From positions 1-64,000 of the forward strand of contig DUSN01000076.1 of assembly GCA_012842605.1 (NCBI GenBank): DNA of 64,000 bases. The letters are read 5' to 3'. The notes beneath the pieces are model-generated. The model had not been told where the DNA came from. It ran no database searches and saw nothing but the letters and a program-made list of their open reading frames with translations. Position numbers and translations under genes: made by a program. Below are positions 4,191 to 63,126 of this stretch, one piece after another (the first letter of the stretch is position 1; each line of letters opens with the position of its first letter). This DNA comes from Clostridiales bacterium (GTDB lineage Bacteria; Bacillota; Clostridia; Caldicoprobacterales; DTU083).

Positions 4191-4295
4191 TATATGATAT
4201 TATTTAAATTATTTTAATTAAAAAATTAGCTATACTTGCAGTAAATTTTTAGCTGTTTTAATATTAGCGGCCAACAATTGAGGAGGTATATTCAA

Positions 4296-8280: not shown

Positions 8281-8353
8281 TTTTGCTGACAAATTTTTAT
8301 AAGCACTATTACTATTGTCGTTTGCTTTAAACCAGCAACAGGAGGCAAAAAGA

Positions 8354-25135: not shown

Positions 25136-27537
<2,402 letters not shown>

Positions 27538-27541
<4 letters not shown>

Positions 27542-36334: not shown

Positions 36335-38491
36335 GTGGCAAGAGAAGTAAAACTACTAAATAAAAATTGGCTGTTTCATATAGGAGAGATTGAAGAACGG
36401 TTACTTCCCAATTATGGTGGATATGAATGGGATCCTGTTACTGTTCCTCATACATGGAACGATATAGATACATTTGTTCCTACCAGAGGATACTACAGAG
36501 GTATTGGGTGGTATAAAAGGTATCTTGAAATTGATGAAAGTATGATGGGTAAAGCCCTGCTGCTTGAGTTTGAAGGCGTTTACGGCAGTGCTGAAATATG
36601 GATTAATGGTGTATATAAAGGCCGTTTCCTGGCTGGTTATACAGGATGTCTTGTAGATATAACCAAAGATATTAGAGTAGGTTTTGATAATTTACTTGCA
36701 GTAAGAGTTGATAATAGGCATAGTGAGGAAATATTACCGGCAAGGGTTGAACCGGATTACTATTTGTATGGCGGTATCTACAGAGAAGTCAAGCTAATTG
36801 TAGCAAATAAAACTCATATTGCATGGAGAGGTGTCAGAATAAAAACAGATGAAATAAATGGTAATATGGCAGTAATCAGCGCTGAAGCAGATTTTGTTAA
36901 AGAAAGAAAAGTAAAATGCAAGCTGGACATGGTTATTTACGACATGAATGATGCTGTAATTGCAGCACAGGAATGTACACTAAAGGATAATACTACCTTT
37001 GTGTCTCAATGTATTATAAATGATGTGAATCTATGGAGCCCGGATAACCCATATCTTTATAGAGCCGAATTCAGACTAACTGATAAATTGGGACAGATAC
37101 TAGATTTTATTGATGTAAATTTTGGTGTTAGAGAATTTGAGTTTCATCCAGAAAAGGGTTTTTATCTTAATGGCAAACCTCTGAAGTTAAATGGACTTAA
37201 CAGACATCAATGCTTTCCGGGACTGGGTAATGCATTACCAATTTCTCTTCAATATGAAGACGCAAGATTAATTAAAGAAATGGGAGCTAATATAGTAAGA
37301 AATTCCCACTACCCACATCACCCTTCATTTTTGGATGCATGTGACAGATTGGGATTGCTGGTGTATACCGAAATAGCTACCTGGCAGACTATTGGGGAAG
37401 AAAAATTCTTTAACAGTGCAAAGCAAATGATGAAAGAAATGATACAAAGAGATTACAATCATCCATCAATTATTATATGGGGCATGATGAACGAAGGTCG
37501 ATCCAGAGAACTGTTTTTACAGTTGCATGAAATAGCCCATAATATGGATCCGGATAGAATGACTTCCTATTGCGAAAATAAGCTTGATGAAGGTAAAGAG
37601 ATAGGGACTGTAACAATTCCGGATGTATTAAGTGTTAATTATCAGCTGGAAATTCTGGATGAATTCCATAAAAAGCATCCGAATTACTGTTTGTTTATTG
37701 GTGAGTATACCAACAGTACAATACCCAGAAAAGATCCGGATAAGCTTAAAGAACAAGTATATAGAATTGCTAATGATTATGAGTTTATAGAAGAAAGAGA
37801 TTATATATCCGGGGGGACTCTCTGGTCAATGCATGATTTTGGTACAGATTATGAGTGGTCCTGGCCCGTTCAGACTTCTGGTGTAATGGATATGTATAGA
37901 ATACCCAAGTACTCATATTATTACATGAAAAGTTGCTGGAGAAAAGACCCAATTGTTTTTATAGCCGGACACTGGACAATGCATGGTAAGGAAGGCAAGG
38001 ATGTCGAAGTATTAGTTATTAGTAATTGTGATGAGGTAGAATTATTCATAAATGGAGTATCTCAAGGTAAAAAGACTGCAAAGAGAATATTTAAATTCAA
38101 TGTAAAATATGAGCCAGGAACAATAAAGGCAGTTGCTAGTAAAGATGGACAAAATGTTGAGGCGGTATTACAGACTGCTGGTAAACCGGAGTATATAAAA
38201 ATCGAAGCTAATAAAAAGGAAATTCCGGCAGATGGAAATGAAGTATCAATAATAACAGCTACAGTTACTGATAAATCAGGTGTATTAGTACCTGATGCAG
38301 ATTGGAAAATTTATCTGAATTGTGAAGGTGATAGTGGTAAATTATGCGGTCTTGGTGGAGAGAACATTATACATACAAAGATGGGGATAGGACGAATCGC
38401 ATTTAAGGCCGGCACAAAGAAAGGTATTGTAGAGATAAAAGGAGAAGCTAATGGGATAACAAGCAACATATGTAAAATTAATATGATTTAA
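36335..38491 (+). CDS. Glycoside hydrolase family 2 (beta-galactosidase type)
   Basis: This 718-residue GH2 enzyme has a sugar-binding jelly roll (about 1-165), an Ig-like domain (170-275), a TIM barrel (280-560), and DUF4982 plus Ig-like C-terminal domains (about 570-718). The acid/base is Glu387 in WGMMNEGR and the nucleophile Glu457 in FIGEYTNS. NRHQCFPGLGNA and NIVRNSHYPHHPSFLD are further GH2 blocks. The GTG start follows TTAGGGGG. No signal peptide is present, so it acts in the cytoplasm on an imported oligosaccharide. GH2 includes beta-galactosidases, glucuronidases and mannosidases; the architecture fits galactosidase best. Confidence 0.9.
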   Translation: MAREVKLLNKNWLFHIGEIEERLLPNYGGYEWDPVTVPHTWNDIDTFVPTRGYYRGIGWYKRYLEIDESMMGKALLLEFEGVYGSAEIWINGVYKGRFLAGYTGCLVDITKDIRVGFDNLLAVRVDNRHSEEILPARVEPDYYLYGGIYREVKLIVANKTHIAWRGVRIKTDEINGNMAVISAEADFVKERKVKCKLDMVIYDMNDAVIAAQECTLKDNTTFVSQCIINDVNLWSPDNPYLYRAEFRLTDKLGQILDFIDVNFGVREFEFHPEKGFYLNGKPLKLNGLNRHQCFPGLGNALPISLQYEDARLIKEMGANIVRNSHYPHHPSFLDACDRLGLLVYTEIATWQTIGEEKFFNSAKQMMKEMIQRDYNHPSIIIWGMMNEGRSRELFLQLHEIAHNMDPDRMTSYCENKLDEGKEIGTVTIPDVLSVNYQLEILDEFHKKHPNYCLFIGEYTNSTIPRKDPDKLKEQVYRIANDYEFIEERDYISGGTLWSMHDFGTDYEWSWPVQTSGVMDMYRIPKYSYYYMKSCWRKDPIVFIAGHWTMHGKEGKDVEVLVISNCDEVELFINGVSQGKKTAKRIFKFNVKYEPGTIKAVASKDGQNVEAVLQTAGKPEYIKIEANKKEIPADGNEVSIITATVTDKSGVLVPDADWKIYLNCEGDSGKLCGLGGENIIHTKMGIGRIAFKAGTKKGIVEIKGEANGITSNICKINMI

Positions 38492-38646
38492 CATATTTTA
38501 ATGCATTATTGAGATTGCTTCTCTTCTCACTTAATATTCCCGACTGCTTTATGCAGGCCAGTGATACGAGGAGTATTACATCTATACTCAAACTATGCAA
38601 ATTCCAATTACTATACATTGACAATAAAGCAAAGAGGAGATTTACT

Positions 38647-39870
38647 ATGGATAGCAATGAGACTTCAAGGAATATAAGAACAAGATGGTTTTCAGAAGCC
38701 AAGATAGGCTTGTTTGTTCATTGGGGATTGTATTCAATACTTGGCCGTGGCGAATGGGCAATGAATAATGAAAGAATACCAAAAGATGAGTATAACAAGT
38801 TGGCAGATATATTCAATCCTGATAGTTTTAATGTCAATACCTGGGTTAGTCTGGCAAAGGAAGCAGGAGCCAAATATATGGTAATGACTGCTAAGCATCA
38901 TGATGGGTTTGCATTATTCAACAGCAAATTCGATGATTTCAATAGTTATAAAACTGCAGCTAGACGGGATTTTATAGGTGAATATGTGGATGCCTGCAGA
39001 AAAGCAGGTTTGAAAATTGGAATATACTATTCGTGGATGGATTGGCAATTTTTGGGTTATTTTGCCAGAGAAAAATATAAGGATAGTTTAAAGGAAATGA
39101 CAGAAAAAGCAAAATGTCAAATAGAAGAATTGATGACTAATTATGGGGATATAGACATTTTATGGTATGACGGTATAGGATTCAGGGATCCTCTTGATAA
39201 GGATACTCTTGAAAAAATATGGAATACCAGGGAGATAAACAAAAATGTTAGAAAGCTTCAACCTAATATACTCATAAACGATCGTTCTACGACAAAAGAA
39301 GATTTTGACACACCGGAAGGATATATAATCCCGTCAGCACCTGGCCGACTTTGGGAATCATGTATGACAATAGGAGGAGCATGGGGCTATGCAGCTAACA
39401 GTATTGATATGAAGCCGGTAGCTCTGCTCATTCAGAACCTGATAACTGTAGCGGCATATGAAGGGAATCTGCTATTAAATATTGGTCCTAAAGGTGATGG
39501 TAGTGTTGATGAAGAGGAAGCAAGAAAACTTAAGGAGATAGGAAAGTGGTTAAGCATTAATGGAGAAGCTATCTATGGGTGCAAAAGAGCGCCATTTACT
39601 TCGAGCCATTTAGGCTTAGTTACAGTAAAGGATAATTATGCTTATATCCATGTATCGAGCTGGCCTGGTAAGCAAGCATGCCTTGCTGGTGTAGGTACTG
39701 AAGCTGTATCAGCCAGAATTCTGGGAACAGATATAGAAGTTGGTGTTGCTAATAAACCCAATGGCAGACTTATTATAACAGGATTGCCAGAGAAAGCTCC
39801 TTTTAAATATCATACCGTAATAAAAGTCGAGTTTATAGACAATCCTACAGGCCATACAGAAATATTTTAA
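38647..39870 (+). CDS. Alpha-L-fucosidase, GH29
   Basis: This 407-residue enzyme has the GH29 barrel, starting with KIGLFVHWGLYSI, then TAKHHDGFALF and DILWYDGIGF, whose Asp175 is the nucleophile. GNLLLNIGPKGDGSV closes the barrel. It lacks a signal peptide, so it probably acts on imported oligosaccharide. ATG 38647 follows AGAGGAG; the reading frame is open upstream to 38509, but without a site. It stands between GH2 and an SGNH esterase in the same direction, so these three probably act on one fucosylated glycan. Confidence 0.93.
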   Translation: MDSNETSRNIRTRWFSEAKIGLFVHWGLYSILGRGEWAMNNERIPKDEYNKLADIFNPDSFNVNTWVSLAKEAGAKYMVMTAKHHDGFALFNSKFDDFNSYKTAARRDFIGEYVDACRKAGLKIGIYYSWMDWQFLGYFAREKYKDSLKEMTEKAKCQIEELMTNYGDIDILWYDGIGFRDPLDKDTLEKIWNTREINKNVRKLQPNILINDRSTTKEDFDTPEGYIIPSAPGRLWESCMTIGGAWGYAANSIDMKPVALLIQNLITVAAYEGNLLLNIGPKGDGSVDEEEARKLKEIGKWLSINGEAIYGCKRAPFTSSHLGLVTVKDNYAYIHVSSWPGKQACLAGVGTEAVSARILGTDIEVGVANKPNGRLIITGLPEKAPFKYHTVIKVEFIDNPTGHTEIF

Positions 39871-39937: not shown

Positions 39938-41041
39938 ATGGACAAAGTAAATGTTATAAATTATCGAGCTCCTTTAAGAAATACGTATAATGCTATAAAA
40001 AATGGAAAGTTGACAATAGGATTTATAGGAGGTTCTATAACAGATCCAAGAAATGGGTATAATTGGCCGGAGTTTATTATTAGATGGTTTGTAGATAAAT
40101 ATCCCAATGTTAGAATAGTAGAAGAAAATGCTGCAATTGGAGCTACCGGCAGTGAACTTGCTGTTTTTAGGGCTGAGAAGGACCTAATAGATAGGCATTG
40201 TGATCTGGTATTTATAGAGTTTGCTGTTAATGATGCAGGTGTTCCAAAAGAGAAAAGGATGAGGGCAAGAGAAGGTCTTATAAGGAAACTATTAAAAGAC
40301 AAAGATAGGGATTTAGTATTTGTATACACGTTCTGGCAGGGTATGTATGAAGAAATGCTTGCAGGGCAAGTACCCGAGTCTATTAAGGATTTTGAAGAAC
40401 TGGCAAGGTATTACGATATTGGATCTGTATGGGTAGGTCAGTATGCTTTAAATGAAGTTAAAGCAGGGAGAGTCAGATGGGAAGAGTGGCTTCCTGATGG
40501 ATTGCATCCACAGCTGTATGGGAGCAGTATATATGCCAGCCCTGTTATAAACTACCTGGAAAATGAGTTGATAAACAAAGTATATGATTTTACGGTGACT
40601 GACGAAAAAAGAATAAATAAGAAACCACTTAATATCAAAAACTGGGAAAATACAGAGTTTATACTATTTGACGATGTTATTTTGTCGGGGCCATGGTACA
40701 TTAGACGATGGCCAAACCTAAAATGGATTGACCAGGTATTAGAGACATTTTCAATTGATGCAAAGTTAAAATTTTCTTTCATTGGTAGAGGTCTTGTTCT
40801 GGGATTTGATTTTGGAAGCACATCTGCAGAATTCAAATATTGTCTGGATGGAGGAGAATGGATTGACAGTGAACGGGATAGAGATGCATCTTGGCCCAAA
40901 GAAGGAAATTTTTATGCTATGTGTATTAAGGATGATATGGAAATGGGTATGCATGAGTTTGAACTTAAAGTTGTCCATGGGAATAGACCTGGATGCTGCG
41001 GTGTAAATTTCAGAATAGCTTTTATTGGTGTTATTAAGTAG
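39938..41041 (+). CDS. SGNH/GDSL-type carbohydrate esterase
   Basis: This 367-residue two-domain protein has an SGNH hydrolase domain (about 1-215) with all four blocks: IGFIGGSIT (Ser33), NAAIGATGS (Gly), FIEFAVNDAG (Asn) and DGLHP (Asp187, His190). The C-terminal beta-rich domain (about 235-367) resembles the accessory jelly rolls of carbohydrate esterases. It likely removes acetyl or other acyl groups from a sugar. AGAGGGG precedes ATG 39938. The context is glycan degradation with a fucosidase and a GH2. Confidence 0.85.
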   Translation: MDKVNVINYRAPLRNTYNAIKNGKLTIGFIGGSITDPRNGYNWPEFIIRWFVDKYPNVRIVEENAAIGATGSELAVFRAEKDLIDRHCDLVFIEFAVNDAGVPKEKRMRAREGLIRKLLKDKDRDLVFVYTFWQGMYEEMLAGQVPESIKDFEELARYYDIGSVWVGQYALNEVKAGRVRWEEWLPDGLHPQLYGSSIYASPVINYLENELINKVYDFTVTDEKRINKKPLNIKNWENTEFILFDDVILSGPWYIRRWPNLKWIDQVLETFSIDAKLKFSFIGRGLVLGFDFGSTSAEFKYCLDGGEWIDSERDRDASWPKEGNFYAMCIKDDMEMGMHEFELKVVHGNRPGCCGVNFRIAFIGVIK

Positions 41042-41080: not shown

Positions 41081-41702
41081 ATGACAAAAAGAGAAATTGT
41101 TATAGCAACCATTAAGCATAGGAAAACAGGTAAGGTTCCTTATGGAAAAAATACATTATATAAAAGAAAACACAGACTGTTATATTTTAGTTTTAATATA
41201 TGGATCCCATTTTGAAAAGGCATGTTTTGCCAGGGGGATGGAGAACTCTCTGGTTGATCATGTTTTCAATAAAAAGTTTGTCAGGAAACTGATAGATAAT
41301 ATTATAAGGAAAAAATGATTGCCCCAGGCGAAATGTTGGAATATGATTTGATAAAGAAGACAGGTAAGGATATATGGATACATTCTTGTGGAAATATTCA
41401 AGAAATTATACCTGATTTAATTCAGATGGGAGTAGATGTTCTTAATCCAGTTCAGCCTGAAAGTAATGAACATTAAAACTGAAAAAAATTATGGAAATAA
41501 CATTACTTTTTGGGGCGGTATTAGTACACAGTTGACTTTGCCTTACGGAACACCTCAACAGGTTAAAGATGAGGTGAAATCAGTTATTGAAGCAATGAGT
41601 GCAGGTGGTGGATATATATCATCGCCTGCTCAGGATATTCAGGGGGATGTTCCTGCTGAGAATATTCTAGCCCTATTGGAAGAGATCATGAAATACGGAT
41701 GA
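41081..41702 (+). pseudogene. Degraded URO-D superfamily protein
   Basis: ATG 41081, after AAGGGG, gives MTKREIVIATIKHRKTGKVP, the typical N-terminus, but the frame soon stops. Pieces in other frames read GSHFEKACFARGMENSLVDH and NKKFVRKLIDNI, then WIHSCGNIQEIIPDLIQMG with the HxCG motif, and WGGISTQLTLPYGTPQQVK to the end at 41702. Roughly the middle third is missing. It would have been of the HSCG type, like the gene at 44290. It heads the tandem array of four intact paralogues. Confidence 0.82.
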
Positions 41703-41781
41703 AATTAACTTTACTGCTTCTGCTAACTACTTTGATGAATATACAGCTCAGCTTAATTATAAAGGAAGGATGAGTAGAATT

Positions 41782-42840
41782 ATGTCGTTTCAGGATGGAA
41801 TGTCTGCGATTAATCTGGAAATGCCTGCACGGGTACCCAGAACGGAGTATTCTGCAGATTGGCATTGGGATCTTGTTAAGAGGGTAACTGGGATAGAGGT
41901 TAATGTGTTTAGCACCCCCAAGGTACAGGATCAGGCACGAAAGGCTTTTATGAAGGAATGGAATTATGACTTCATATGGTGCACATCTATAGGAGGTACT
42001 ATTTTCGGTGATCTAAGAACCAATATGGGACATGCGATATATGCTTCAGAAGGGGTTGACTACAACAGCAACATATATTGCCCATTCAAAGATCCTGAGG
42101 AGGTTCTGCGTTTTGACCCATGGGAGGCATATGGCAAAAGAGACCATCAACAGCTGGTAAGGGATTTTGAGAACTACTATCGTACCAATGTTGAGTTCTA
42201 TCCTGATGCTGTGAATATGACTGGTGTATATGTTACCTGTATATCAGGCCTTATTGATATTTTCGGCTGGGAGATGCTGCTATTGGCTGCTGGCAGTGAT
42301 CCGGAAGCCTTCGGTAAGCTGACAGAGCGATATGTTTCATGGGTTCAGCAATATTATGATGCACTGGGTGATGCTGATGTCCCTGTAGTTATGGTTCATG
42401 ATGATATTGTATGGACATCAGGACCGATTTTTCATCCAGACTGGTATCGGAAATATGTATTCCCTAATTATAAAAAGCTGTTTGTTCCACTGTTAGACAG
42501 TGGTAAAAAAATTATATTTACCTCAGACGGCACTTATACCATGTTTATTGATGATATAGCTGACTGCGGAGTTCATGGGTTTGTTATGGAGCCTACAACA
42601 GACATGGCCTATATAGCAGAAAAATATGGTAAAACCCATGTGTTTATTGGGAATGCCGATACCCGTATTCTATTAAACGGTACAAGGGAGGATATATATC
42701 AAGAAGTATTACGCTGTATGCAAATAGGTAAAAATTGCCCTGGATATTTCATGGCTGTAGGTAATCATATACCCCCAAATACTCCTGTGGAAAATGCACT
42801 TTATTACAATGAGGTTTACGAAAAATTAAGTAGGCGATAA
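41782..42840 (+). CDS. URO-D superfamily protein, S-D-G variant
   Basis: This 352-residue member of the URO-D/MtaA-like superfamily has a predicted TIM barrel. Where related proteins have His-x-Cys-Gly, it has T247-S248-D249-G250 (KKIIFTSDGTYT), so both zinc ligands are lost and an Asp takes the Cys position. VFIGNADTRILLNGTRE and AVGNHIPPNTPVENA are the C-terminal barrel blocks; the third zinc Cys is also absent. ATG 41782 is preferred (GGAAGGA 11 bases upstream), with ATG 41770 possible. It is the first of four intact tandem copies. Substrate unknown; not HemE. Confidence 0.82.
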   Translation: MSFQDGMSAINLEMPARVPRTEYSADWHWDLVKRVTGIEVNVFSTPKVQDQARKAFMKEWNYDFIWCTSIGGTIFGDLRTNMGHAIYASEGVDYNSNIYCPFKDPEEVLRFDPWEAYGKRDHQQLVRDFENYYRTNVEFYPDAVNMTGVYVTCISGLIDIFGWEMLLLAAGSDPEAFGKLTERYVSWVQQYYDALGDADVPVVMVHDDIVWTSGPIFHPDWYRKYVFPNYKKLFVPLLDSGKKIIFTSDGTYTMFIDDIADCGVHGFVMEPTTDMAYIAEKYGKTHVFIGNADTRILLNGTREDIYQEVLRCMQIGKNCPGYFMAVGNHIPPNTPVENALYYNEVYEKLSRR

Positions 42841-43003
42841 CTTGCACTATAACAAGGTGCACACTCTGGTACTGCAAGCAATTCTATAAATAAGCTGAAG
42901 TAATTTCCACGGATTAAACATGACAGTAGAAGCCCTGTAAAGTAAAATTTGGACATTGAAAACCTTAAAAAACTATTATCGAAATATACAGGAAGTGGTA
43001 TTA

Positions 43004-44242
43004 GTGAAAATAAGTTCTAAAGACAGGGAGATCATCAGAAACCTGGCAATGAAGTATCGTGATGTGGCACTTATGGATATTCATAGAGATACAATTGAAG
43101 ATTGGAAAAAGCTTAACTCTCTGAAACCGACAAGGCCAATGATAATGATTGATCAGATTCCCTGGCATGAGATGAATGTAAATGACGAGCTGACTCTTTT
43201 ATGTGAGAATGAATTTTTAAGAAGTTTCGAATTTGGAATACGAACGACTCTGTATAAGTGGAAGTATTTTCCTTGTGATATGGTCATTAGTCCATTTTTT
43301 CAGATTCCAAAGGTATACACAGAAACTGGTATTGGAATATCAACAAGAATAAGTCAAAATGATATATTGCATAGTGAAGCAATGACACATACCTACGAAG
43401 ATCAGATTAAGGATGAGGAAGATCTAGAGAAATTACATTTTTCTGAAATAAAATATGATGCACAAGCCACAGCCAGGAGAAAAGCTTTTATGGAGGATTT
43501 GATCGGTGATATTTTACCTGTAAAACTGTCAGGTATAAGTATTTGGGCTGCTGTATGGGATAGAATTGTATTCTGGCGTGGAGTAACACCGGTCCTTTAT
43601 GATTTGATAGACAGGCCGGATTTCATTCATAAAATGATGGAGAAAATTATTAGTATTGAAATGAACTCTCTTGATCAGTATGAGGAGCAAAACCTGTTGG
43701 ATTATGAGCAAGGCACAATACATTGCTCAGGAGCGTACACATATGAGCTTCCTGCAAGCGGTTTTAATGAAAACAAAATCAGGGCACGAGACTGCTGGGT
43801 TGCAGGAGCTGCTCAGATCTTTTCTGAGGTATCTCCAGCCATGCATGATGAGTTTGAAATACAATATATGAAACCCTATTATGAGCGGTTTGGTTTGGTA
43901 TATTATGGCTGCTGCGAGCCTCTGCATAATAAAATTGATATCATTCGAAAGATAAACAATGTACGTCTGATATCTATCAGCCCTTGGGCTGATGTGAATA
44001 TTGCAGCTGAGAACATGGGAAGAGATTATGTGATGGTCCGCAAATCTAATCCCTCGTACCTTGCAATGAACTCCTTTGATGCACGTCTTGTAGCCGACGA
44101 AACAGAAGAAACTTTGAAGGCTTGCATCTCTAATGGAACACCTTGTGAGTTTGTACTAAAGGACATTACAACTGTACGAAATGAGCCTGATCGCTTAGCA
44201 AAATGGTATGAAGTAGTAAAAGCGACCATAGAGAATTTTTGA
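43004..44242 (+). CDS. Divergent URO-D superfamily protein, Y-G-C-C-E variant
   Basis: This 412-residue protein is the most divergent paralogue of the tandem set. It is longer, has a distinct N-terminal region (KPTRPMIMIDQIPWHEM), and carries YYGCCEPLHNKIDII where others have HxCG. Its final barrel region (NGTPCEFVLKDITTV) also differs. GTG 43004 follows GGAAGTGG; the ORF from 42956 has no site. Similar proteins in Clostridia are annotated only as URO-D-like or hypothetical. A methyltransferase or other corrinoid-linked role is possible, but the sequence does not establish it. Confidence 0.72.
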   Translation: MKISSKDREIIRNLAMKYRDVALMDIHRDTIEDWKKLNSLKPTRPMIMIDQIPWHEMNVNDELTLLCENEFLRSFEFGIRTTLYKWKYFPCDMVISPFFQIPKVYTETGIGISTRISQNDILHSEAMTHTYEDQIKDEEDLEKLHFSEIKYDAQATARRKAFMEDLIGDILPVKLSGISIWAAVWDRIVFWRGVTPVLYDLIDRPDFIHKMMEKIISIEMNSLDQYEEQNLLDYEQGTIHCSGAYTYELPASGFNENKIRARDCWVAGAAQIFSEVSPAMHDEFEIQYMKPYYERFGLVYYGCCEPLHNKIDIIRKINNVRLISISPWADVNIAAENMGRDYVMVRKSNPSYLAMNSFDARLVADETEETLKACISNGTPCEFVLKDITTVRNEPDRLAKWYEVVKATIENF

Positions 44243-44289
44243 TATTCAAATAAAGCAACTATAAAATAAATAGGAGATGGGATGCTGCG

Positions 44290-45285
44290 ATGAAATCTAA
44301 AGAGCGTGTTATAAGGGCAATTCAATACAAAGAAGTGGATAGGGTTCCGGTTGGGCTCTTTGGGACCTATACAAGTTATGAAGAACGTATGGCTAGATAT
44401 ATTGGTACCAATAGCATTGAGCAGATGTATAGAATCTTGGGCATTGATGTCTGGCATGCTAAGACTAGCATGAGATATACCGGTGAAATGGATCTGCACA
44501 AAATGTTAGAAATGAATCCGCATCCCTTTGCTGAAGTTTCAAGTATAGACGAGGTTGAAGAGTGGCAGTTTCCCAGTATAGAATTTTATGATGCGACAGA
44601 ACTTAAAAAGGAACTTGAAGAGCATCAGGAATTTGCTGTATGTGGAGGTATAAACTCTGCAATATTTCACTACTACCTTGATATGTGTGGCCAAGAAAAT
44701 GCCCTGATTTTATTAAAAACACAGCCAGATATAGCAAAGGCAATAATTAGAAAAATTACTGATTTCTGGGTTGACTACTTAAAGAAAGTATTGGATGCAT
44801 GCAGCGGGCTCATAGACATCATAGAGAATTGCAATGATTTTGGAACTCAACGGAGTATGTTTATCAGCCCGGATGATTTTCGGGAATTCTTCAAGCCTGA
44901 GTTAGGCAGGCTGTATAAAACTGCAAAGGAGTATGGCGTGTTTTATATGCAGCACTCATGTGGCGCAATAGGACCAATTATACAAGATTTTATTGAAATG
45001 GGCGCTGATATTTTAAATCCCATACAGGTGTTAGCAAATGGCATGGAAATAGAAGGACTCGTTCAGAAGTATAAGGGAAAGATAACCTTTTATGGTGGTA
45101 TAGATACCCAAAATTTACTTCCTAAAGGTCCGGAAAGTCGTATTAGAGCTGAAGTGCGCAGGCTGACGGGATACTTTGGCTTTAACGGAGGACTAATTTT
45201 ATCAAGTTCACAGGGATTGATGGAGGATATTCCAATTCCTCATGCTATTGCCATGCTACAAGAAAATTTGCAAATAGCGCAGTGA
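44290..45285 (+). CDS. URO-D superfamily protein, HSCG type
   Basis: This 331-residue compact member has the classic MtaA-like layout. KSKERVIRAIQYKEVDRVPVG starts the barrel, H222-S-C224-G225 (FYMQHSCGAIG) supplies two of three zinc ligands, and TFYGGIDTQNLLPKG follows. The third zinc position reads LILSSSQG, without Cys. GGAGATGGG lies before ATG 44290. It is the paralogue closest to methylcobamide methyltransferases in length and motifs. It is 48 bases from the previous gene, which suggests one operon. Confidence 0.87.
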   Translation: MKSKERVIRAIQYKEVDRVPVGLFGTYTSYEERMARYIGTNSIEQMYRILGIDVWHAKTSMRYTGEMDLHKMLEMNPHPFAEVSSIDEVEEWQFPSIEFYDATELKKELEEHQEFAVCGGINSAIFHYYLDMCGQENALILLKTQPDIAKAIIRKITDFWVDYLKKVLDACSGLIDIIENCNDFGTQRSMFISPDDFREFFKPELGRLYKTAKEYGVFYMQHSCGAIGPIIQDFIEMGADILNPIQVLANGMEIEGLVQKYKGKITFYGGIDTQNLLPKGPESRIRAEVRRLTGYFGFNGGLILSSSQGLMEDIPIPHAIAMLQENLQIAQ

Positions 45286-45498
45286 CTGAGGTGTAGAATG
45301 ATGAGACCATAGTTCTGGCGGTCGAACAAAAATGGTTCTTAAGCTCAGAAAAAAGGATTACCATATATACAAAGCAGTTGCTGCTCTATTACTTAGAATA
45401 ATTTCTTATTATACATCTGCTAAGTTTATATTAGATGCAGGTGCTATTGCTTTTAAGTGAAAAGGCATTACAAATATTATTGTATGAGAGGGATCAAA

Positions 45499-46515
45499 AT
45501 GAATCTAATACACAGAGTGCCTGACTTTGATAATATACTTGCTGTTTTGAATTGTGAAGTGCCAAAGCGGCATACTTTGTTTGAGTTTTTTATGAATGAT
45601 AACTTGTATCGTGAGGTGACTGGTAGAACACCTTCTTATAATGATAATCTGGATGTACTGAAGTATCATATAGATGCTTTTGCTGCTTGTGGTTATGACT
45701 ATGCACCGGTGTGGGGTAAAATGTCTTTTAAGCAAGCAGCACGCAAAAAAAAGGAAACTATATCCCTGAATGAAGGAAGTGTCATTTACGATAGAGAAAC
45801 CTTTGAAAATTATGAATGGCCGGACCCTTCATTAGATGACTATTCTTATCTTGAGCAAATCCGGAGTTATCTTCCTGGTAATATGAAATTGATGATTGTA
45901 GGTCCTAACGGTTTGCTGGAAAATGCAATTAGTTTGGTAGGTTATGAAAGGTTATGTATCATGATTTATGAGGATGAGAATCTGGTAATAGATATATTTA
46001 ACAAAATAGGCTCTATACTGCTTAAATATTATGATATAACTGCTCAGTATGACAGTGTGGGCATTGTTATGTCAAATGATGATTGGGGATTTAAAACACA
46101 AACAATGCTATCACCGCAGCAATTAAGGAAATATGTATTTCCTTGGCATAAGAAAATAGTACAGACAGCTCATAAATACGGAAAACCCGCGGTACTGCAT
46201 TCCTGTGGATATGCTGATGAAATTATGAACGATATTATATATGATATGGGATATGATGGGAAACACTCATTTGAGGACAGTATACGAAGCATAGAGGATA
46301 GTTATGAGAAATGGGGCGGAAAAATCGCTCTTCTGGGAGGTGTAGATGTAGATTTTCTTATTCGTTCATCGGTTGAGGATATAACACGCAGATCCAGAAA
46401 TTTACTGGAAATGGCAAAGTATGCTGGAGGTTATGCTTTAGGATCAGGGAACAGTATACCCGATTATGTTCCTATGGAAAAATACTTTGCTATGACTGCA
46501 GCTGTCCTGGACTGA
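45499..46515 (+). CDS. URO-D superfamily protein, HSCG type
   Basis: This 338-residue member has H234-S-C236-G (VLHSCGYAD) and IALLGGVDVDFLIRSSVED, and ends with YALGSGNSIPDYVPMEKYF, where the third zinc Cys would be. Its N-terminus (KRHTLFEFFMNDNL) lacks the RVP segment. ATG 45499 follows GAGAGGG; the frame is open from 45457. The 213-base gap before it is longer than those between the other array genes and holds no recognisable gene. Confidence 0.85.
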   Translation: MNLIHRVPDFDNILAVLNCEVPKRHTLFEFFMNDNLYREVTGRTPSYNDNLDVLKYHIDAFAACGYDYAPVWGKMSFKQAARKKKETISLNEGSVIYDRETFENYEWPDPSLDDYSYLEQIRSYLPGNMKLMIVGPNGLLENAISLVGYERLCIMIYEDENLVIDIFNKIGSILLKYYDITAQYDSVGIVMSNDDWGFKTQTMLSPQQLRKYVFPWHKKIVQTAHKYGKPAVLHSCGYADEIMNDIIYDMGYDGKHSFEDSIRSIEDSYEKWGGKIALLGGVDVDFLIRSSVEDITRRSRNLLEMAKYAGGYALGSGNSIPDYVPMEKYFAMTAAVLD

Positions 46516-51794: not shown

Positions 51795-53252
51795 ATGGCA
51801 AATAAACCCAATGTACTCTTGATCACTGCAGATCAAATGCAACGAAAAGCACTTAGTGTATATGGAAATCGGGTTATTAAAACTCCAAATCTCCATAATT
51901 TAGCAATTGATGGTGTCGTAATGGATCATCATATTATACAAAACCCTGTTTGTTCCCCATCAAGAGCTACAATTTTAACAGGGCGATATCCCAGAAACCA
52001 TGGACTTAGGGAAAATGGATGCAATATGCGGCCTGGAGAACATACTTTAGCATCAATTTTAAAGAAAGAAGGGTATCACACAGGTGCCATAGGAAAAATG
52101 CATTTAACACCACAGTTACCTGTATATTATGATGATGAGAATTGGCCGGAGGATGACTTTGGTTTTATGACAAAACACCTAACCTGTGACAATAAAAGTG
52201 GAGAGTATTTGGAGTGGTTGAAGGAAAATGATATCCGATGGTATGAATATGTAAGAAAACAGGGTGAGGATAAAATTGCAGAGGACATAGCGGAGTTTAA
52301 TGAACGTTCTAATGAACTGCCTCCGCAGGTTAAAGAGAACCTGATTCCTGTTGAACTTCATCAAACAACATGGATTGCTGATCATACTATTGAACTGATT
52401 AAAAAATGTGAAGGAAATCCCTTCTTTATATGGTGTTCTTTTGTTGATCCTCATCATCCTTTTGATCCACCTGAGCCGTATGCGTCTATGTATGATATAG
52501 ATAAAATACCTATACCCCCAAGAAAAGACGGGGAGATGGGGGATAAACCGCCTCACTTTAATGAGATGTTAACAGGTAAAAGCGTTGGCAATGAAAAATA
52601 TGACTTGGCTAATTTGACAGATGAGGCATATAAAACCATTATCGCTAAGTACTATGGAATGATAACGTTCATTGACGATCAGATTGGACGTATATTGAAT
52701 TACCTGAAAAAGTGTGGTGAATATGATAATACAATAATTATTTTTACAGCCGATCATGGTGAACTAATGGGAGATCATCGTTTGCTCTTCAAGGGACCTT
52801 TCCATTATGATTCACTAATTCGTGTTCCTATGATTATGAAGTATGGAACCCGCATAGGTGGTGGAAGTCGTGTAAATGGTATTACTCAGCATACAGATAT
52901 TCTGCCTACTATTTTGCAGTTAACAGGAATCCCCGTTCCGGAGGGTGTGCAGGGTAGGTCAATGCTGAATGTGATAAATGGTGAGCCTGGATATGACTTT
53001 GCTCTTATTGAACATAATAGTGGAGATTGGGGATTGAATATTAAAACAATACGTTCTAAGGAATGGAGACTTACATATTATGCCAACCAGGATTTTGGAG
53101 AGCTATATGATCTAAGAAAAGATGCTGATGAATTTATAAACTTGTGGGATAATCCTGACTATACTGACATCAAAAACGCTTTAATAAGAAAGCTTCTTGA
53201 TAAAGTATTATCAACAGAAGATACCCTTCCGATAAGAAGTGCAAGATATTAG
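51795..53252 (+). CDS. Sulfatase (formylglycine-dependent, Cys type)
   Basis: This 485-residue sulfatase would remove sulfate esters from a glycan. The core motif CSPSRATILTGRYP has Cys53, which must be converted to formylglycine; in anaerobes a radical-SAM maturase does this. LLITADQMQRKALS supplies the N-terminal metal ligands, IGKMHL the Lys region, and FTADHGELMGDH the Asp-His pair. No signal peptide is present, so it is cytoplasmic and acts on imported sugars. AGAGGTTATGGCTT precedes the ATG. No maturase gene is in the window. Confidence 0.92.
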   Translation: MANKPNVLLITADQMQRKALSVYGNRVIKTPNLHNLAIDGVVMDHHIIQNPVCSPSRATILTGRYPRNHGLRENGCNMRPGEHTLASILKKEGYHTGAIGKMHLTPQLPVYYDDENWPEDDFGFMTKHLTCDNKSGEYLEWLKENDIRWYEYVRKQGEDKIAEDIAEFNERSNELPPQVKENLIPVELHQTTWIADHTIELIKKCEGNPFFIWCSFVDPHHPFDPPEPYASMYDIDKIPIPPRKDGEMGDKPPHFNEMLTGKSVGNEKYDLANLTDEAYKTIIAKYYGMITFIDDQIGRILNYLKKCGEYDNTIIIFTADHGELMGDHRLLFKGPFHYDSLIRVPMIMKYGTRIGGGSRVNGITQHTDILPTILQLTGIPVPEGVQGRSMLNVINGEPGYDFALIEHNSGDWGLNIKTIRSKEWRLTYYANQDFGELYDLRKDADEFINLWDNPDYTDIKNALIRKLLDKVLSTEDTLPIRSARY

Positions 53253-53273
53253 GAAAGAGGAGAAAAAAGCAAA

Positions 53274-54368
53274 ATGATGACAAGCAAGGAAAGAATAGAA
53301 GCCACACTCTTTCAGAAAGAAAAGGACAGAATGCCCTTTTGGCCTAAGTTTGGGGCAGATTATATATTATGCTTGAAAGGTAAATTTAAAGGGATGAGCA
53401 TAATGGATTTACACAGGTATGTCGGGTCAGACCCTATGATCCATATTAATGTATACCATGCTGCTGAAGAAAATCCCAGGGTTCGGGTAAAGCATAATTG
53501 CACAAATAACACTCGTGAAACAGTATATGAGACACCGGATGGTACTTTGATAAGACGGGACGTGTTCAGTAAAGATACACAAACTTGGCATCCTGATGTA
53601 TATCCAATTCATGACCTGGAAAGTCTAAAAGCTGCTCGTTATCTGTATGAAGGTATAGAATATCATATAGATAAATTTCAAATAGCGAATATAAATTTGA
53701 TGGAGCAGAATTTGTCAGAAAAGGAATGGTTCTATACTACACTGGGTAGAACCCCTGTAATGGACTTGGTGGAGTATATGATGGGTATAGAGAATTTTTC
53801 GTATATCATGTATGACCATCCAATTGAGCTGAATGAGTTAATTGAGATAATGCAGGACAGCTATCTGAAAAGATGGAAAATAAACCTTGAGAATACAAGA
53901 ATTGAAAATATTGTGGCAGGAGAAGATACATCAACAACACTTATTAGCCCAACTATATTTGAAAAATACTGTCTTCCCCACTTAAGACAATATGGAGAAA
54001 TGATATCCGGACAATTCGGTAAGAATTTTATTGTTCATATGTGCGGAAAAATAAAGGCATTAATGCCTTTAATTGATAAAATACCGGCAATTGCTATCGA
54101 AGCTGTTTCAACACCTCCAGTAGGGGATGTAACTATAAAGGAAGCGTTAGAGGGTATGCCATCAAAAACGGTGTGCGGAGGGAGTAATGCAAGTATTTGG
54201 AATAAGCCATATTATGAAGCTGCAAGAATTATCCTTGAAGATATTCAAGCTGCGGGCGATGTAAGTAGATTATATTTAAGCTCTGGAGGGACTATGCCTA
54301 TTGAAGCGGATCCGGAAAATGTAAAAATGGTTTGGGAAACTGTTTTGAAGGAAATGCATAAGGCATAA
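53274..54368 (+). CDS. URO-D superfamily protein, HMCG type
   Basis: This 364-residue member has MTSKERIEATLFQKEKDRMPF at the N-terminus, H255-M-C257-G (FIVHMCGKIKAL) and a C-terminal LYLSSGGTMPIEADPENV, without the third zinc Cys. GGAGAAAAAAG precedes ATG 53274; the neighbouring ATG 53277 is possible. It lies 21 bases after the sulfatase and 25 bases before a GH2 gene, so it is embedded in a glycosidase operon. Substrate unknown. Confidence 0.85.
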   Translation: MMTSKERIEATLFQKEKDRMPFWPKFGADYILCLKGKFKGMSIMDLHRYVGSDPMIHINVYHAAEENPRVRVKHNCTNNTRETVYETPDGTLIRRDVFSKDTQTWHPDVYPIHDLESLKAARYLYEGIEYHIDKFQIANINLMEQNLSEKEWFYTTLGRTPVMDLVEYMMGIENFSYIMYDHPIELNELIEIMQDSYLKRWKINLENTRIENIVAGEDTSTTLISPTIFEKYCLPHLRQYGEMISGQFGKNFIVHMCGKIKALMPLIDKIPAIAIEAVSTPPVGDVTIKEALEGMPSKTVCGGSNASIWNKPYYEAARIILEDIQAAGDVSRLYLSSGGTMPIEADPENVKMVWETVLKEMHKA

Positions 54369-54393
54369 ATATCTTAATTTAGGGGAGATTTCT

Positions 54394-57300
54394 ATGGATT
54401 ATGCAAGTAAAATAATTAATAGAATAAATTGGATACCAATTCCAAATGAAGGATGGAATATTGAAGCTGCTACGGAAGGAAATGAAGATGTACTTTTTCT
54501 AAATGGTACTTGGGAATTTACTATTCGAGATAGGGATAAAAAAGCTGGATGGTACAGTATTGATGAACAGATTCGTTATGCATGGGATGAGAATGAAAAA
54601 AAGCTGTTACCGTTACTTGATTATCAACAGGATAGTTTTGAGAGTGATTTTTATCTATTTCAACCTGCATATAAAGAATGGAATTATATTATTGTTCCAT
54701 CTAACTGGGAACGGGAAGCGTTTTCTAAACATGTATTTGCTCATTGCAGTTTAATCCATGATGATGTGGTAGGATACTATCGGCGCTTTTTTGAGGTGCC
54801 GGAAAGTTGGGATAGCGGAAGAATAATACTTCAGGCTGAAGGGATTTCTGTTTCAGCTGAAGTGTATATCAATGAAAAAAGAGTGGGATATCACGATGGT
54901 GGATTTGTGCCATTCCAAATGGATGTTACAGAATTCATTGAAAAAGGAAAAATTAACCTTATTGCTATTCGTGTAGTAAAAGGTGATATTTCTACAGTGC
55001 ATGACAGTTCAGGTCAGTGGATGATGGGAGGGATATATAAGGATATTTTTCTTTTCCATGTGCCGGAAACACATATTTGTGATTTTGAGGTTAAAACAGA
55101 TTATGATTTTTTAACAGGCATTGGAGTGGCGGATATTTCTATTAAAATAAATCAGCAAGTAGAGAATGATAATTGGCAAATACAGACTATCCTTTATGCT
55201 TATGATACAGATGAGATTCTTTATGAATATGAATCATCTTTAATAGCAGGAGCTAATAGCCATAAATGCCATCATGTGTTTAAAGATATTCTTCCATGGA
55301 GTATGGAAGAACCTAATCTTTACAGGCTGGAATGTGTTTTATTAAGGGAAGGGACAGTAATCGAGCGTGTTAGAGAGGAAATTGGCTTTCGACGATTTTC
55401 AGCTGATGGTGCTGTTTTCCTTTTAAATGGAAAGCATATTACTATCCGTGGTGTTACAAGACATGATAATCTTGAGGTTAGGGGATATGCCCTAACAGTA
55501 GGTGATATGATTAAAGATATAATGTTAATGAAAGAGGCTAATATTGATGGCGTGCGTTCTCATCCCTATCCTTTTGATAGCAGATTTGTAAAACTTTGTG
55601 CTCGCTATGGCTTGCTGGTTGCAGTAGAATACTGCCTGTGTGGCTATAACTCATGGGGTAATCAATGGACATTATCAGAAGAAGAAACATATCCATTACC
55701 TGAAGAAAGCTTTGATCAAAACTACCGCAAGTTATTTAATGAACGTTATCATTATTTTGCTCCTCGGATATATGGGAGATATAAGAATATGACAGCTATA
55801 TTTGCATGGGGACTGGCTAATGAGAGTGGTTTTTGCGAAATATTTATCCCGGTTGCCCGGTTTTTATATGAAACAGATAAAACGCGCTTTATTTACGCAG
55901 CAGGTGAAAGAGATTGCGCGGACTTTCATTATCATAAAGAACCATGGTATAGTACAATTATGAATAATTACATTACAGCTGATTCACAACATTATCCGGA
56001 ATCCATTCCCCCTGACCAGATAAGTAATACTTTGCCTAGATGGTCTTCAAAGCCTAGACCTATGTTCTATACTGAAGCAGGGCATCCGTTTAGTAACCGT
56101 GAGAACTTTGTTATAGATCCAGGTTTTATAGGAGAACCATATGGACGATGTATAAAAAAAGCAGTAGAAGCATTTTTTAGCTGCGATAATGTGGGCGGAT
56201 ACTTTATATTTGAATGGTGTGATCAAGGAGCTATGCAAAAGGGAGATCCTGCATCCTCAGTTAGTTTCCTGAATGAATGGCGTGGTTATATATCATATAA
56301 TCAAAATGTTAAAGGGATAGTGGGGCCGAACCGTGAGCTGAAGCCAGCATACTATCATATAAAGAAGGCATTTGCACGTATAGATATAGAATGTCTTGAT
56401 GTTGTTAATGAAAAACTCATTTTAGATGTTAAAAACAATTATACATGGCTCAATTTAAGCAATTTTCGTATTGATGTGACTGCTACGAATGGGATTGTCC
56501 CTGCATGCCTGCCTATATCCATAAAAGCAGATATTAAACCAGGGTCAAGTAAAAGAATAGAGGTTGCAGTTCCAGTATCAAAAGAAATACGCTGCTATAA
56601 GATTGAAGTTATAGATGAACGATATGGGATTTGCATACAGGAACGCCATTTCTGGTTGCAACCAAAGCCATGGAGGGGAGAGATAGTTCAGTTTAACCCT
56701 GCACGACCCATATCAAATCAAGAAGGTATTTTAAGAGGTTTTAAAATTAATAATAATTCGCTGGATTTTATTCAATCATTGGATTTAACTTTAGGTGCAA
56801 AACCTGGATCAGATAAAAATCTATATCTGGGGATGGGGCATTTAGACAACTTACCAGGTGATGTGGAAAAATTTTATCATGATTTTTCCATTCAAAGCTG
56901 CAAACTAGTTGATTTTTCCATCCAAAATGAAATTATCTGTGCTAAAAAAGAATACTACCTTGAAAGCGGTATAATCGCTTGTGATTTTCACATTTATCCA
57001 GATAACAAAGGTACGATTCGAATTGAGCAAAATATAAGCTATAATGGAGAACCAGTCCCTGTAATACAGCTTGGTATGAAATTCTCTGTTTCTTCATACT
57101 ATCGGAAAGTGGCATGGTTACGTAATGGCTTATGGAATGAGTATCCGGATAAGCACCCAGATCGTCTGTTTGGAGAGATAGATTTGGAAATGGACGAATT
57201 TCCCACAGTAAATCCTTTCCGTTACCCTTCTTTTTCTGAAGCCTTTTCAATCAGAAATGTAAGGGAAGTTATTATAAGTGGACAGCTTGTTCCATCATTA

Positions 57301-57546
57301 TATGCAAAAGCACTTAATGATGGGCAAAAGCTGTTAGTCATAAGCATGCCTAGTCATAGAAGAGATATTTATCTGGTATTGGAGTCATATGGAACATTAC
57401 CATATTCTGAATTCTCTTTTAATACTCGTGCACGCGAAGATTGTGGTGCTACTAAGTTTACTATCAGAGAAGCATATCAGGGTATAAAAAGAATAGAACC
57501 AGGGACAAAAGTGAAAAACAATTGGGAAATAGGAATATTACTATAG
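54394..57546 (+). CDS. Glycoside hydrolase family 2, LacZ-type beta-galactosidase
   Basis: This 1050-residue enzyme has the long LacZ layout: jelly roll (about 40-225), Ig-like domain (230-330), TIM barrel (335-640), second Ig-like domain (about 650-730) and a beta-gal small-chain-like domain (about 750-1050). The acid/base is Glu477 in AWGLANESGF and the nucleophile Glu561 in FYTEAGHPF. GVTRHDNLEVRG and DGVRSHPYPFDSRF are family blocks, the second differing from the usual RCSHYP. It is cytoplasmic. Substrate may be a modified galactoside, given the sulfatase and URO-D neighbours. Confidence 0.9.
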   Translation: MDYASKIINRINWIPIPNEGWNIEAATEGNEDVLFLNGTWEFTIRDRDKKAGWYSIDEQIRYAWDENEKKLLPLLDYQQDSFESDFYLFQPAYKEWNYIIVPSNWEREAFSKHVFAHCSLIHDDVVGYYRRFFEVPESWDSGRIILQAEGISVSAEVYINEKRVGYHDGGFVPFQMDVTEFIEKGKINLIAIRVVKGDISTVHDSSGQWMMGGIYKDIFLFHVPETHICDFEVKTDYDFLTGIGVADISIKINQQVENDNWQIQTILYAYDTDEILYEYESSLIAGANSHKCHHVFKDILPWSMEEPNLYRLECVLLREGTVIERVREEIGFRRFSADGAVFLLNGKHITIRGVTRHDNLEVRGYALTVGDMIKDIMLMKEANIDGVRSHPYPFDSRFVKLCARYGLLVAVEYCLCGYNSWGNQWTLSEEETYPLPEESFDQNYRKLFNERYHYFAPRIYGRYKNMTAIFAWGLANESGFCEIFIPVARFLYETDKTRFIYAAGERDCADFHYHKEPWYSTIMNNYITADSQHYPESIPPDQISNTLPRWSSKPRPMFYTEAGHPFSNRENFVIDPGFIGEPYGRCIKKAVEAFFSCDNVGGYFIFEWCDQGAMQKGDPASSVSFLNEWRGYISYNQNVKGIVGPNRELKPAYYHIKKAFARIDIECLDVVNEKLILDVKNNYTWLNLSNFRIDVTATNGIVPACLPISIKADIKPGSSKRIEVAVPVSKEIRCYKIEVIDERYGICIQERHFWLQPKPWRGEIVQFNPARPISNQEGILRGFKINNNSLDFIQSLDLTLGAKPGSDKNLYLGMGHLDNLPGDVEKFYHDFSIQSCKLVDFSIQNEIICAKKEYYLESGIIACDFHIYPDNKGTIRIEQNISYNGEPVPVIQLGMKFSVSSYYRKVAWLRNGLWNEYPDKHPDRLFGEIDLEMDEFPTVNPFRYPSFSEAFSIRNVREVIISGQLVPSLYAKALNDGQKLLVISMPSHRRDIYLVLESYGTLPYSEFSFNTRAREDCGATKFTIREAYQGIKRIEPGTKVKNNWEIGILL

Positions 57547-58137: not shown

Positions 58138-59286
58138 TCAAAACTCCAGCATTCTTTTACGATAATGCATGTAATTTTCAAAGCTGGTTTCCTCTGGTAC
58201 GCCATGATCACAACAAGGAATATACCCTCCGCGCTTTTTCATAAAGGGCATGATCCGATCAACTTCACGGTCAATAGCTTCCTTGCTTGAAGCGAGTATA
58301 CGTTTGTCAATTCCTCCCCTGATTAGCAGTTCTGGATAATCCTTTGCGATCTGTACAACATCGCAGCCTGAGGCAACCTCAAAAGGGCTCATATAGTCCA
58401 TCCCAATCTCTTTATATAGGTCTATTACAGGCACTGCATTACCATCTGTATCTATTTGAATATGGAGCTTGCGGCTTTTATCTTTTTGGCGTTTTTTCAC
58501 ATTGCTTATGAGCTGCTGGTAATAAGGAAATAAGAATTCCCGTATCATATTAGGAGCAATTAACGGACCATGATTGTAGCAAATATCCTCTGCTAAGAAT
58601 ATTTCATCAAAGGTAACATATTGCTGATGTCTCTTAGTCACCTCATCAGCCAGCTCAAACCATGTTCTCATGCATTCATGGATAAGCTTCGGATCGTCAT
58701 AAAACATATACAGGAGTTCGACTGGCCCGATTAAGCTGCGAAGATACATGTAACCACCAATAATATGCTGTACAATAAACATGCCTGATTCAGCACATTC
58801 TACAGCAACCTTCATACGTTCATTGAGATCTGAATATCTTCTTGAATCACTTGGATCAAGTCTCCATTTGCAGTTTTCTTCCCAGGTCTTCATGTCTTTT
58901 ACGGGGTGTTCCAGGTATTCCGGCATAAAGCCATTACGCCGCCCTTTAAAGTATAAGACATGCCGGCCGGCAATATCGCGGACTAGTTCATAATCTCCCT
59001 TATCCTCTAATATCTCGACGTCGAACGAGGGTGAAAAGGGTGCCTCACACCATCCAAGCTGTCCAAGCGAGTGGGTCCCTGGTTCATCATAACCGAATAA
59101 ATCATAAAAATCAGTTGAGTCGTTAATATGACCTTCTCTCTTCCACCTATCTAAGATGGGCAGGCCAAATTCCATCTGAAAAATCGGTGCGTCAGGCTTC
59201 ATCTGATAAAAGTCTCTCATCTTGGCAATTCCAATATTTCTTTTTTGTTTTAACCTGTCTATGCTTGAATTATTAGCTTTATTCAT
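58138..59286 (-). CDS. URO-D superfamily protein, D-T-D-G variant
   Basis: This 382-residue member is the only one on the minus strand. HIQIDTDGNAVPVIDLY holds Asp-x-Asp-Gly where others have His-x-Cys-Gly. LIRGGIDKRILASSKEAID and GGYIPCCDHGVPEETSFENY follow; it is the only paralogue with cysteines in the last block, near the third zinc position. ATG 59286 follows AAGGGGAAT; the frame opens at 59322, but without a site. Substrate unknown. Confidence 0.82.
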   Translation of the reverse strand: MNKANNSSIDRLKQKRNIGIAKMRDFYQMKPDAPIFQMEFGLPILDRWKREGHINDSTDFYDLFGYDEPGTHSLGQLGWCEAPFSPSFDVEILEDKGDYELVRDIAGRHVLYFKGRRNGFMPEYLEHPVKDMKTWEENCKWRLDPSDSRRYSDLNERMKVAVECAESGMFIVQHIIGGYMYLRSLIGPVELLYMFYDDPKLIHECMRTWFELADEVTKRHQQYVTFDEIFLAEDICYNHGPLIAPNMIREFLFPYYQQLISNVKKRQKDKSRKLHIQIDTDGNAVPVIDLYKEIGMDYMSPFEVASGCDVVQIAKDYPELLIRGGIDKRILASSKEAIDREVDRIMPFMKKRGGYIPCCDHGVPEETSFENYMHYRKRMLEF

Positions 59287-59500
59287 GAAGATTCCCCTTA
59301 TCAGTATATATTTTAAATGCATTTGGTATGTGATAACTCTAATTACTGCAGATTTAATTATCGACTATTATATAGCAGTTGTGCAGACAAAACATATAAA
59401 CAATTTGGAACTAAACATATACATTATGGACATCCTTAATTGTTGATTCTGATTAGAATGTAAGATTCTACATTTCATAATACTATAAAATATTTTTCTA

Positions 59501-62900: not shown

Positions 62901-63126
62901 CATTAAATGCGCAGAGGACGGCAGGGGAATGATCATGCGTGTGTATGAATCTGAAGGTATCAGGGGAAAAACCGCTATAAAGCTTTCATTCACGGCAGCG
63001 GAAGTTTTTGAATGCAATCTCATGGAAGAGGACGAAAAGCTGATTTGCCGGAATACCAGCTCATTTGAGTTTTTCATTAAACCTTATGAAATAAAAACCT
63101 TCAGGATTTTCAGGGTGCAAGATTGA
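59962..63126 (+). CDS. Alpha-mannosidase, GH38
   Basis: This 1054-residue enzyme has the bacterial GH38 layout: N-terminal beta domain (1-250), catalytic barrel (about 265-530), helical bundle (530-640) and C-terminal beta domains. Zinc ligands are His276 and Asp278 in GQAHIDTAWLWP, the nucleophile is Asp388 in WMPDVFGYS, and the last zinc ligand is His591 in FHDIIPGSS. All are present. ATG 59962 follows GGAAGGAGG. It has no signal peptide and acts on imported mannosides such as N-glycan fragments or mannan pieces. It is followed by an HldE-like kinase gene. Confidence 0.95.
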   Translation: MEFTSERVFERKLKAVENAIYSDVLILSKWQKKQGYYTSPGEYTDCGQWEEFTLGDRWSCKDGTTCWFKTTIEIPEAYNGKYVVLELEFGGEALVRINGAIQSALTSYLAENEAARTRVVLPHIPSAGERFDIEVEAGMNYMEFARYRLEGRTSVEYQFRRALLAVVDQNVEQYYFDIKTAYDAMMALKSPIEKLTAANVRLPFEMTRILESFTKDSYIYQKIRDAVLHSLTRIDADMGLEALVKSIPAAAETLREKLAQIPHSPHALIKFVGQAHIDTAWLWPIKETIRKCGKTIANVLDLMERYEDFIFAFSQPQLFEYTKDYYPELYERVKQKVKSGQFELVGNTWVEMDTNIPSGESLVRQLLYGRAFFQKEFGKVSRVFWMPDVFGYSWALPQIIKRSGMEYFFTSKLINNDTNNFPYSLFMWQGIDGTRILSYVQRLNYNGRYNPETVETIYNRFDQKNLTDNLLMTFGYGDGGGGPTYQMLETGRRLKSFPGLQKTEMNTSVSFFDAVDPIKDQLPVWNNEMYYEFHRGTYTSQARIKKNNRKAELGMRHAEMLAAVAKDMYGADYPYEDILKAYKLILTNQFHDIIPGSSIHDVYIDSEKDYKYVFDIIKKIEEDAVEHLTTPAQWDKVVVFNSLSWDRTGYVRVPLPAGLPDAAVVNAQGNPVPSVCRDGWLEFEAWAPALGAASYCIAKRGVHAESNIFVGKDRMENDFYIIHLDDNGNLTSIYDKRNNCEVLEQGRASNLLQIFEDKPYCETAWNIDLEYQNKCWNLAEGTVEVLEQSSLKGIIRVTRKFNLSTIIQDITIYRSIPRIDFCTRVDWNETEKMLKAAFHVNVLSSKAVYEIQFGSIERPTHWNTSYDKAKFEVCGHKWADLSEGGYGVSLLNDCKYGYDIKDNCMRITLLRSPVDPDPEADKGIHEMCYSLLPHAGDHRQGRTVKAGYELNVPLKAVMGRCVARDGSYAEISRDNVIIDTIKCAEDGRGMIMRVYESEGIRGKTAIKLSFTAAEVFECNLMEEDEKLICRNTSSFEFFIKPYEIKTFRIFRVQD

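Follow-up and report, generated by a model that had tools for sequence, protein, structure and literature searches.

URO-D genes at the locus

The window, a 64,000-nucleotide stretch of one contig (C89) from the metagenome-assembled genome (MAG) of an anaerobe, contains seven intact genes and one dead copy of the URO-D superfamily. The genome is 3.28 Mb in size and 84% complete. Features of the window are listed in Table 1, and each URO-D gene is named below by the first coordinate of its open reading frame (ORF). Four of the intact genes stand side by side with the dead copy at 41081-46515, exactly where an earlier reading of the sequence alone (the sequence-only reading) had placed them. The starts that it proposed (41782, 43004, 44290 and 45499) are in-frame starts within the four ORFs, and orthologues of 41770 begin with MSY or MSF, favouring 41782. 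The three further intact members it named were found at 8315 (claimed at 8354), 53274 and 58138.

Table 1. Features of the window, with strand and basis of assignment
Coordinates	Strand	Feature	Basis
4278..5696	+	MTTB-family (non-pyrrolysine) corrinoid methyltransferase homologue	
8315..9505	+	URO-D protein, HLCG type, operon-like run	Pfam URO-D
36335..38491	+	GH2 glycosidase, opens the gene run containing the URO-D array	Domain profile match
38509..39870	+	Alpha-L-fucosidase (GH29, PF01120)	8e-88
39938..41041	+	GDSL-type esterase/lipase	Match right at family cut-off
41081..41702	+	Remnant URO-D gene (dead copy) with frame shifts and two gaps	Pieces compared with L116:6129-7130
41770..42840	+	TSDG-type URO-D protein (probable start 41782) from an orthologue family with wide transfer	Pfam URO-D
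42956..44242	+	YGCCEP-type protein, a divergent member of the URO-D superfamily (possible start 43004)	Held-out profile and predicted fold
44290..45285	+	URO-D protein, HSCG type without third Cys	Pfam URO-D
45457..46515	+	URO-D protein, HSCG type without third Cys (possible start 45499)	Pfam URO-D
51795..53252	+	Sulfatase	
53274..54368	+	URO-D protein, HMCG type, flanked by sulfatase and GH2	Pfam URO-D
54394..57546	+	GH2 glycosidase	
58138..59322	-	URO-D protein, DTDG type	Pfam URO-D
59962..63126	+	GH38 alpha-mannosidase	

The claimed setting among glycosidases, esterases and a sulfatase was also confirmed. The array is preceded on the same strand by GH2, GH29 alpha-L-fucosidase and GDSL esterase genes. 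Upstream of 8315 are a sugar ABC transporter, the MTTB-family gene, a PfkB-type kinase and GH4; 53274 sits behind another ABC transporter, with the sulfatase before it and GH2 after it (51795-57546); and 58138 is followed by GH38, from which it points away.

At least four fragments in two frames are left of the dead copy, which lacks about 78 and about 36 residues by comparison with an intact relative in another genome (L116:6129-7130); its main pieces are 54-75% identical to that relative. The relative is the first URO-D gene of a cluster in G025 that also holds a corrinoid protein and RACo, the corrinoid-protein reactivase.

Superfamily affiliation and the metal site

Six of the seven intact proteins (8315, 41770, 44290, 45457, 53274 and 58138) passed the cut-off of the Pfam URO-D model (PF01208) at 1e-14 to 1e-34. 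The seventh, 42956, gave no match in Pfam or NCBIfam, and a single-sequence search of PDB returned for it papain matches only, which we judged to be chance. It was recovered by a profile built without its own subgroup (4.7e-8, against 0.014 for the best reversed decoy), and HemE and MtaA structures fill all 19 of the top 19 rows of a structure search with its AlphaFold2 model. Judged by held-out profile and predicted fold, 42956 belongs to the superfamily.

Pairwise identity among the seven is 12-21% and they form separate deep branches in the tree. Their nearest relatives are elsewhere: 58138 is 69% identical to a gene on contig C52, 45457 is 53% identical to one on C48, and 41770 reaches 74% in other genomes. 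The low identity, together with closer relatives on other contigs and in other phyla, rules out an origin of the array by tandem duplication. Genome-wide, there are 32 PF01208 matches and about 4 divergent members, of which about 34 appear intact; neighbours of those outside the window include GH38, sulfatase, DUF2961, LacI-type regulator and sugar transport genes. Because the members belong to deeply separated lineages at scattered places in the genome, action on different methylated compounds is as likely as the suggested several related reactions on one glycan.

The seven proteins reach at most 33 bits with the HemE model (TIGR01464, equivalog cut-off 303 bits) and at most 62 bits with the MtaA/CmuA models (TIGR01463 and NF040654, cut-offs 235 and 400 bits), and all are far under the NCBIfam cut-offs for MtaA and MtbA. 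HemE and MtaA identities were rejected on these cut-offs, on the metal-site residues and on separate placement in the tree. The seven are thus unlike HemE, as had been stated, and unlike the characterised methylcobamide:thiol methyltransferases as well. The predicted structure of 41770 (pLDDT 94.8) has MtaA and HemE as its closest folds (VIA-align Z 21.6 and 24.7, respectively). In a search of PDB with the family profile, MtaA (4ay7) was the best match (2e-35); HemE also matched, and CdmB matched at superfamily level only.

The His-x-Cys pair of the MtaA zinc site is kept in 8315, 44290, 45457 and 53274 and lost in the other three, where 41770 reads TSDG, 58138 reads DTDG and 42956 neither. 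The third MtaA ligand, a Cys, is missing in all seven, its position being held by Q, N, N, N, G or H. None therefore keeps the complete His-Cys-Cys thiol site, and among the members of the genome that were read, a protein encoded on contig C22 is the only keeper. His-Cys-Cys has been described as a mark of S-methyltransferases, the O-methyl enzymes swapping Cys for carboxylates or non-ligands (preprint, PMC10418091); the partial or whole replacement of the zinc-site Cys in the window matches the O-methyl-specific members of that study. CdmB and the Moorella O-demethylase are zinc-free (PMC13222342), so loss of the site is no argument against methyl transfer.

Corrinoid genes and fucosidases as neighbours

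The genome has the full partner set of corrinoid O-demethylases. One small corrinoid protein was found (C113:1619-2251; nearest models MtgC/MtbC), encoded behind a PocR/AraC-type regulator, and one RACo (C113:5774-7585), neither with a methyltransferase gene alongside. The third partner, a methyl-tetrahydrofolate (methyl-THF):corrinoid methyltransferase (MeTr; PRK07535 match above cut-off), lies on C69 in a run (L128:7317-11370) of formate-THF ligase (fhs), focA, MeTr and etfA. As a test for an acetogenic end, a search of the genome, at 84% completeness, was made for the CdhC domain (PF03598) of carbon monoxide dehydrogenase/acetyl-CoA synthase; it gave no match, and oxidation to formate is therefore the likely end of the methyl group in this host.

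Across 299 genomes of the same phylum, in which up to six URO-D matches were scored per genome and counts stop at six, the frequency of RACo rises with the number of URO-D genes: 28 of 136 genomes (21%) with none, 19 of 41 (46%) with one, 39 of 45 (87%) with two or three, and 77 of 77 with at least four. RACo is also present in 46 of the 50 genomes bearing a 41770 orthologue. Within the Planctomycetota, it occurs in 8/8 orthologue-bearing genomes and in 27/97 others (p ~8e-5, p values being a guide only because genomes are not independent samples).

Direct linkage was surveyed in the neighbourhoods of RACo in genomes bearing a 41770 orthologue. In Pontiella sulfatireligans (L103), the orthologue, three more URO-D genes, RACo and a corrinoid protein lie inside 15 kb. 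The cluster in a Clostridia MAG (L116) that holds the intact relative of the dead copy consists of a corrinoid protein, a PocR regulator, a URO-D gene, RACo and two more URO-D genes. At two other loci (L121 and L118) a URO-D gene adjoins RACo, the L121 gene falling in the sister clade of 58138. In the tree, RACo-linked URO-D genes scatter among the lineages of the window. A search for RACo or a corrinoid protein in the flanks of the 41770 orthologues themselves gave just one distant corrinoid-domain match. The involvement of a corrinoid carrier, as suggested in the sequence-only reading, is supported by the RACo co-occurrence and by these gene neighbourhoods.

Some further features of the corrinoid loci were recorded. 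The Pontiella locus (L103:354-16085) also interleaves two fatty-acid-desaturase-family genes, CobW, DUF1638 and a sodium symporter. Two URO-D proteins that resemble MtaA most (L107:4130-5491 and L103:5631-7034) carry a C-terminal thioredoxin-like fusion and are clustered with CobW, a corrinoid protein and RACo. On C113, genes for a 752-amino-acid membrane protein and a glycosyltransferase-like protein separate the corrinoid protein from RACo (L083:2383-5798).

The search for orthologues of 41770 gave 78 loci from a wide range of phyla, most of them 50-74% identical. More than 50% identity is kept across Bacillota, Chloroflexota, Planctomycetota, Spirochaetota and others, a strong sign that the family has spread by horizontal transfer. 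Among 134 immediate neighbours of these orthologues, PF01120 alpha-L-fucosidase is the commonest glycosidase. It occurs 11 times, against an expectation of 0.2 (1.56 fucosidases per Mb in these genomes); the 11 loci come from several phyla, with related loci lowering their effective number. The adjacent fucosidases lie 4-237 bp from the orthologues, mostly on the same strand. These counts support a link of the URO-D genes to glycan breakdown and, for 41770, to alpha-L-fucosidase. Homologues of FucI, FucK or FucO are near the orthologues in a few loci, and a complete E. coli-type fucose pathway was rejected as a general feature (fucI in 2 loci, fucK in 3). In porphyran loci, the GH29 enzymes of PF01120 type act as alpha-L-galactosidases (PMC12316285), so L-galactose or methyl-galactose may also be candidate substrates for 41770.

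Proposed O-demethylation of glycan sugars

Plant and algal polysaccharides commonly contain methylated sugars. On balance, we favour the reading that the URO-D genes encode a diversified set of UroD-superfamily corrinoid MT1 enzymes that remove O-methyl groups from glycan sugars. Corrinoid dependence of the set is likely; O-methyl sugars are reasonable, if less assured, candidates for the substrates of most members, with O-methylated L-fucose or an O-methylated fucoside as the lead for 41770. Glycosidases, esterases and sulfatases would free methylated sugars or oligosaccharides, and each URO-D protein would bind one methylated compound and transfer the methyl group from it to cob(I)alamin on the small corrinoid protein encoded on C113, which all of them would share. 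RACo would keep the corrinoid protein reduced, the C69 methyltransferase would move the methyl group on to tetrahydrofolate, and its probable oxidation to formate would bring a gain of ATP. In a broader and more tentative form, about 30 UroD-type methyltransferases, each fitted to its own O-methyl sugar and all delivering methyl groups to a single corrinoid protein, might constitute an anaerobic counterpart of P450 sugar demethylation, coupled to glycosidases and distributed over many phyla, in which 41770 would be an O-methyl-L-fucose demethylase.

The MT1 enzymes of O-demethylases and CdmB (MtvB, OdmB, VdmB, MtoB; CdmB PDB 9rui) share superfamily and fold with the window members and have as partners a small corrinoid protein, an activase and a methyl-THF methyltransferase (PMC13222342), types of protein that this genome also has. 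They act on methoxylated aromatics or haloalkanes, and the Cdm genes are grouped as cdmBCA, whereas the present genes stand among glycosidases and run to dozens of paralogues, and the one corrinoid protein is encoded on a different contig. By analogy, the best account is that the URO-D set works like these systems, as a putative member of the group. MtaA and MtbA, the methylcobamide:coenzyme M methyltransferases, share the His-x-Cys pair with four of the seven and provide the best PDB profile match, but differ in the third Cys ligand and in the model cut-offs; HemE is alike in fold but separate in sequence score and tree. Type I mlp gene clusters likewise combine several URO-D paralogues per genome with a corrinoid protein and a Ram/RACE activase, but almost every Mlp has the His-Cys-Cys set, and the Mlps are linked to sulfur metabolism (PMC10418091); neither applies to the window members. 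The P450 demethylation of 6-O-methyl-D-galactose in marine aerobes has the same proposed role, methyl removal from a glycan-derived sugar, but is oxygen-dependent, yields formaldehyde and employs unrelated enzymes (PMC10033563). The mechanism of anaerobic demethylation of methyl sugars had not been elucidated as of 2025 (PMC12316285), and literature searches that combined URO-D with glycoside hydrolases or fucosidase turned up no relevant paper. The superfamily is an established one, as is the three-component logic; new, as far as the searched literature shows, are the coupling to glycans, the extent of the expansion and the sugar substrates proposed here.

Several points weigh against sugar demethylation. 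Alkyl ethers are more difficult targets for Co(I) than aryl ethers, and the methylation of the neighbouring glycans is presumptive. Loss of the His-x-Cys pair makes other chemistry possible for 41770, 42956 and 58138. The window contains neither a corrinoid protein nor RACo, the sole copies found being those on C113. Four of the 50 genomes with a 41770 orthologue show no RACo, with MAG incompleteness a possible cause, and the co-occurrence of RACo partly tracks phylogeny and ordinary methylotrophic systems.

The set might instead consist of corrinoid MT1 enzymes acting on other methylated compounds of plant or algal matter, such as methoxylated aromatics, methyl thiols or quaternary amines, the glycosidase context reflecting co-regulated plant feeding. 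The known substrates of UroD-type methyltransferases, all aryl ethers, haloalkanes, thiols or methylated corrinoid (PMC13222342, PMC10418091), and the MTTB homologue in the window favour this view. We consider it unlikely, however, given the tight GH29 adjacency of the 41770 family across phyla, the members inside runs of sugar ABC transporter, sulfatase and glycosidase genes, and the fact that no aromatic-degradation genes were seen beside URO-D members. Still less probable are non-methyltransferases, (beta/alpha)8 lyases, isomerases or decarboxylases of sugars or sugar acids that keep the URO-D fold. The lost zinc ligands of several members and the slightly higher VIA-align rank of HemE for 41770 would fit such enzymes, but they leave unexplained both the presence of RACo in all 77 genomes with at least four URO-D genes and the clusters with corrinoid protein and RACo. 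As for HemE-like decarboxylases or MtaA/MtbA-type thiol methyltransferases, weak profile matches to both kinds of model are outweighed by scores far under every equivalog cut-off, the loss of His-Cys-Cys and the absence of grouping with HemE or MtaA; at the sequence level this identity is refuted, and it is hardly credible.

Sugar demethylation, if correct, would give anaerobic one-carbon metabolism a further methyl source, derived from sugars, and explain the dozens of genes annotated as uroporphyrinogen decarboxylase in many anaerobes. The URO-D set provides named candidates for anaerobic sugar demethylation in culturable relatives; orthologues of 41770 occur in Marvinbryantia formatexigens and Robinsoniella peoriensis as well as in Pontiella sulfatireligans.

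Elsewhere on the contig, a single run at 489-10773 comprises sugar ABC transporter, MTTB-family (non-pyrrolysine), PfkB kinase, GH4, URO-D and ROK genes, so that one sugar operon holds two distinct corrinoid-methyltransferase superfamilies. Beyond the window (C89:68536-73258, equivalent to L102:4536-9258), a URO-D gene and a GH3 beta-glucosidase accompany another MTTB-family copy, the second, which matches poorly in its N-terminal part. The region at 13819-27541 carries polysaccharide synthesis genes (Wzz-type, sugar transferase and O-antigen ligase type) and, after them, a run of genes for pyrimidine biosynthesis.

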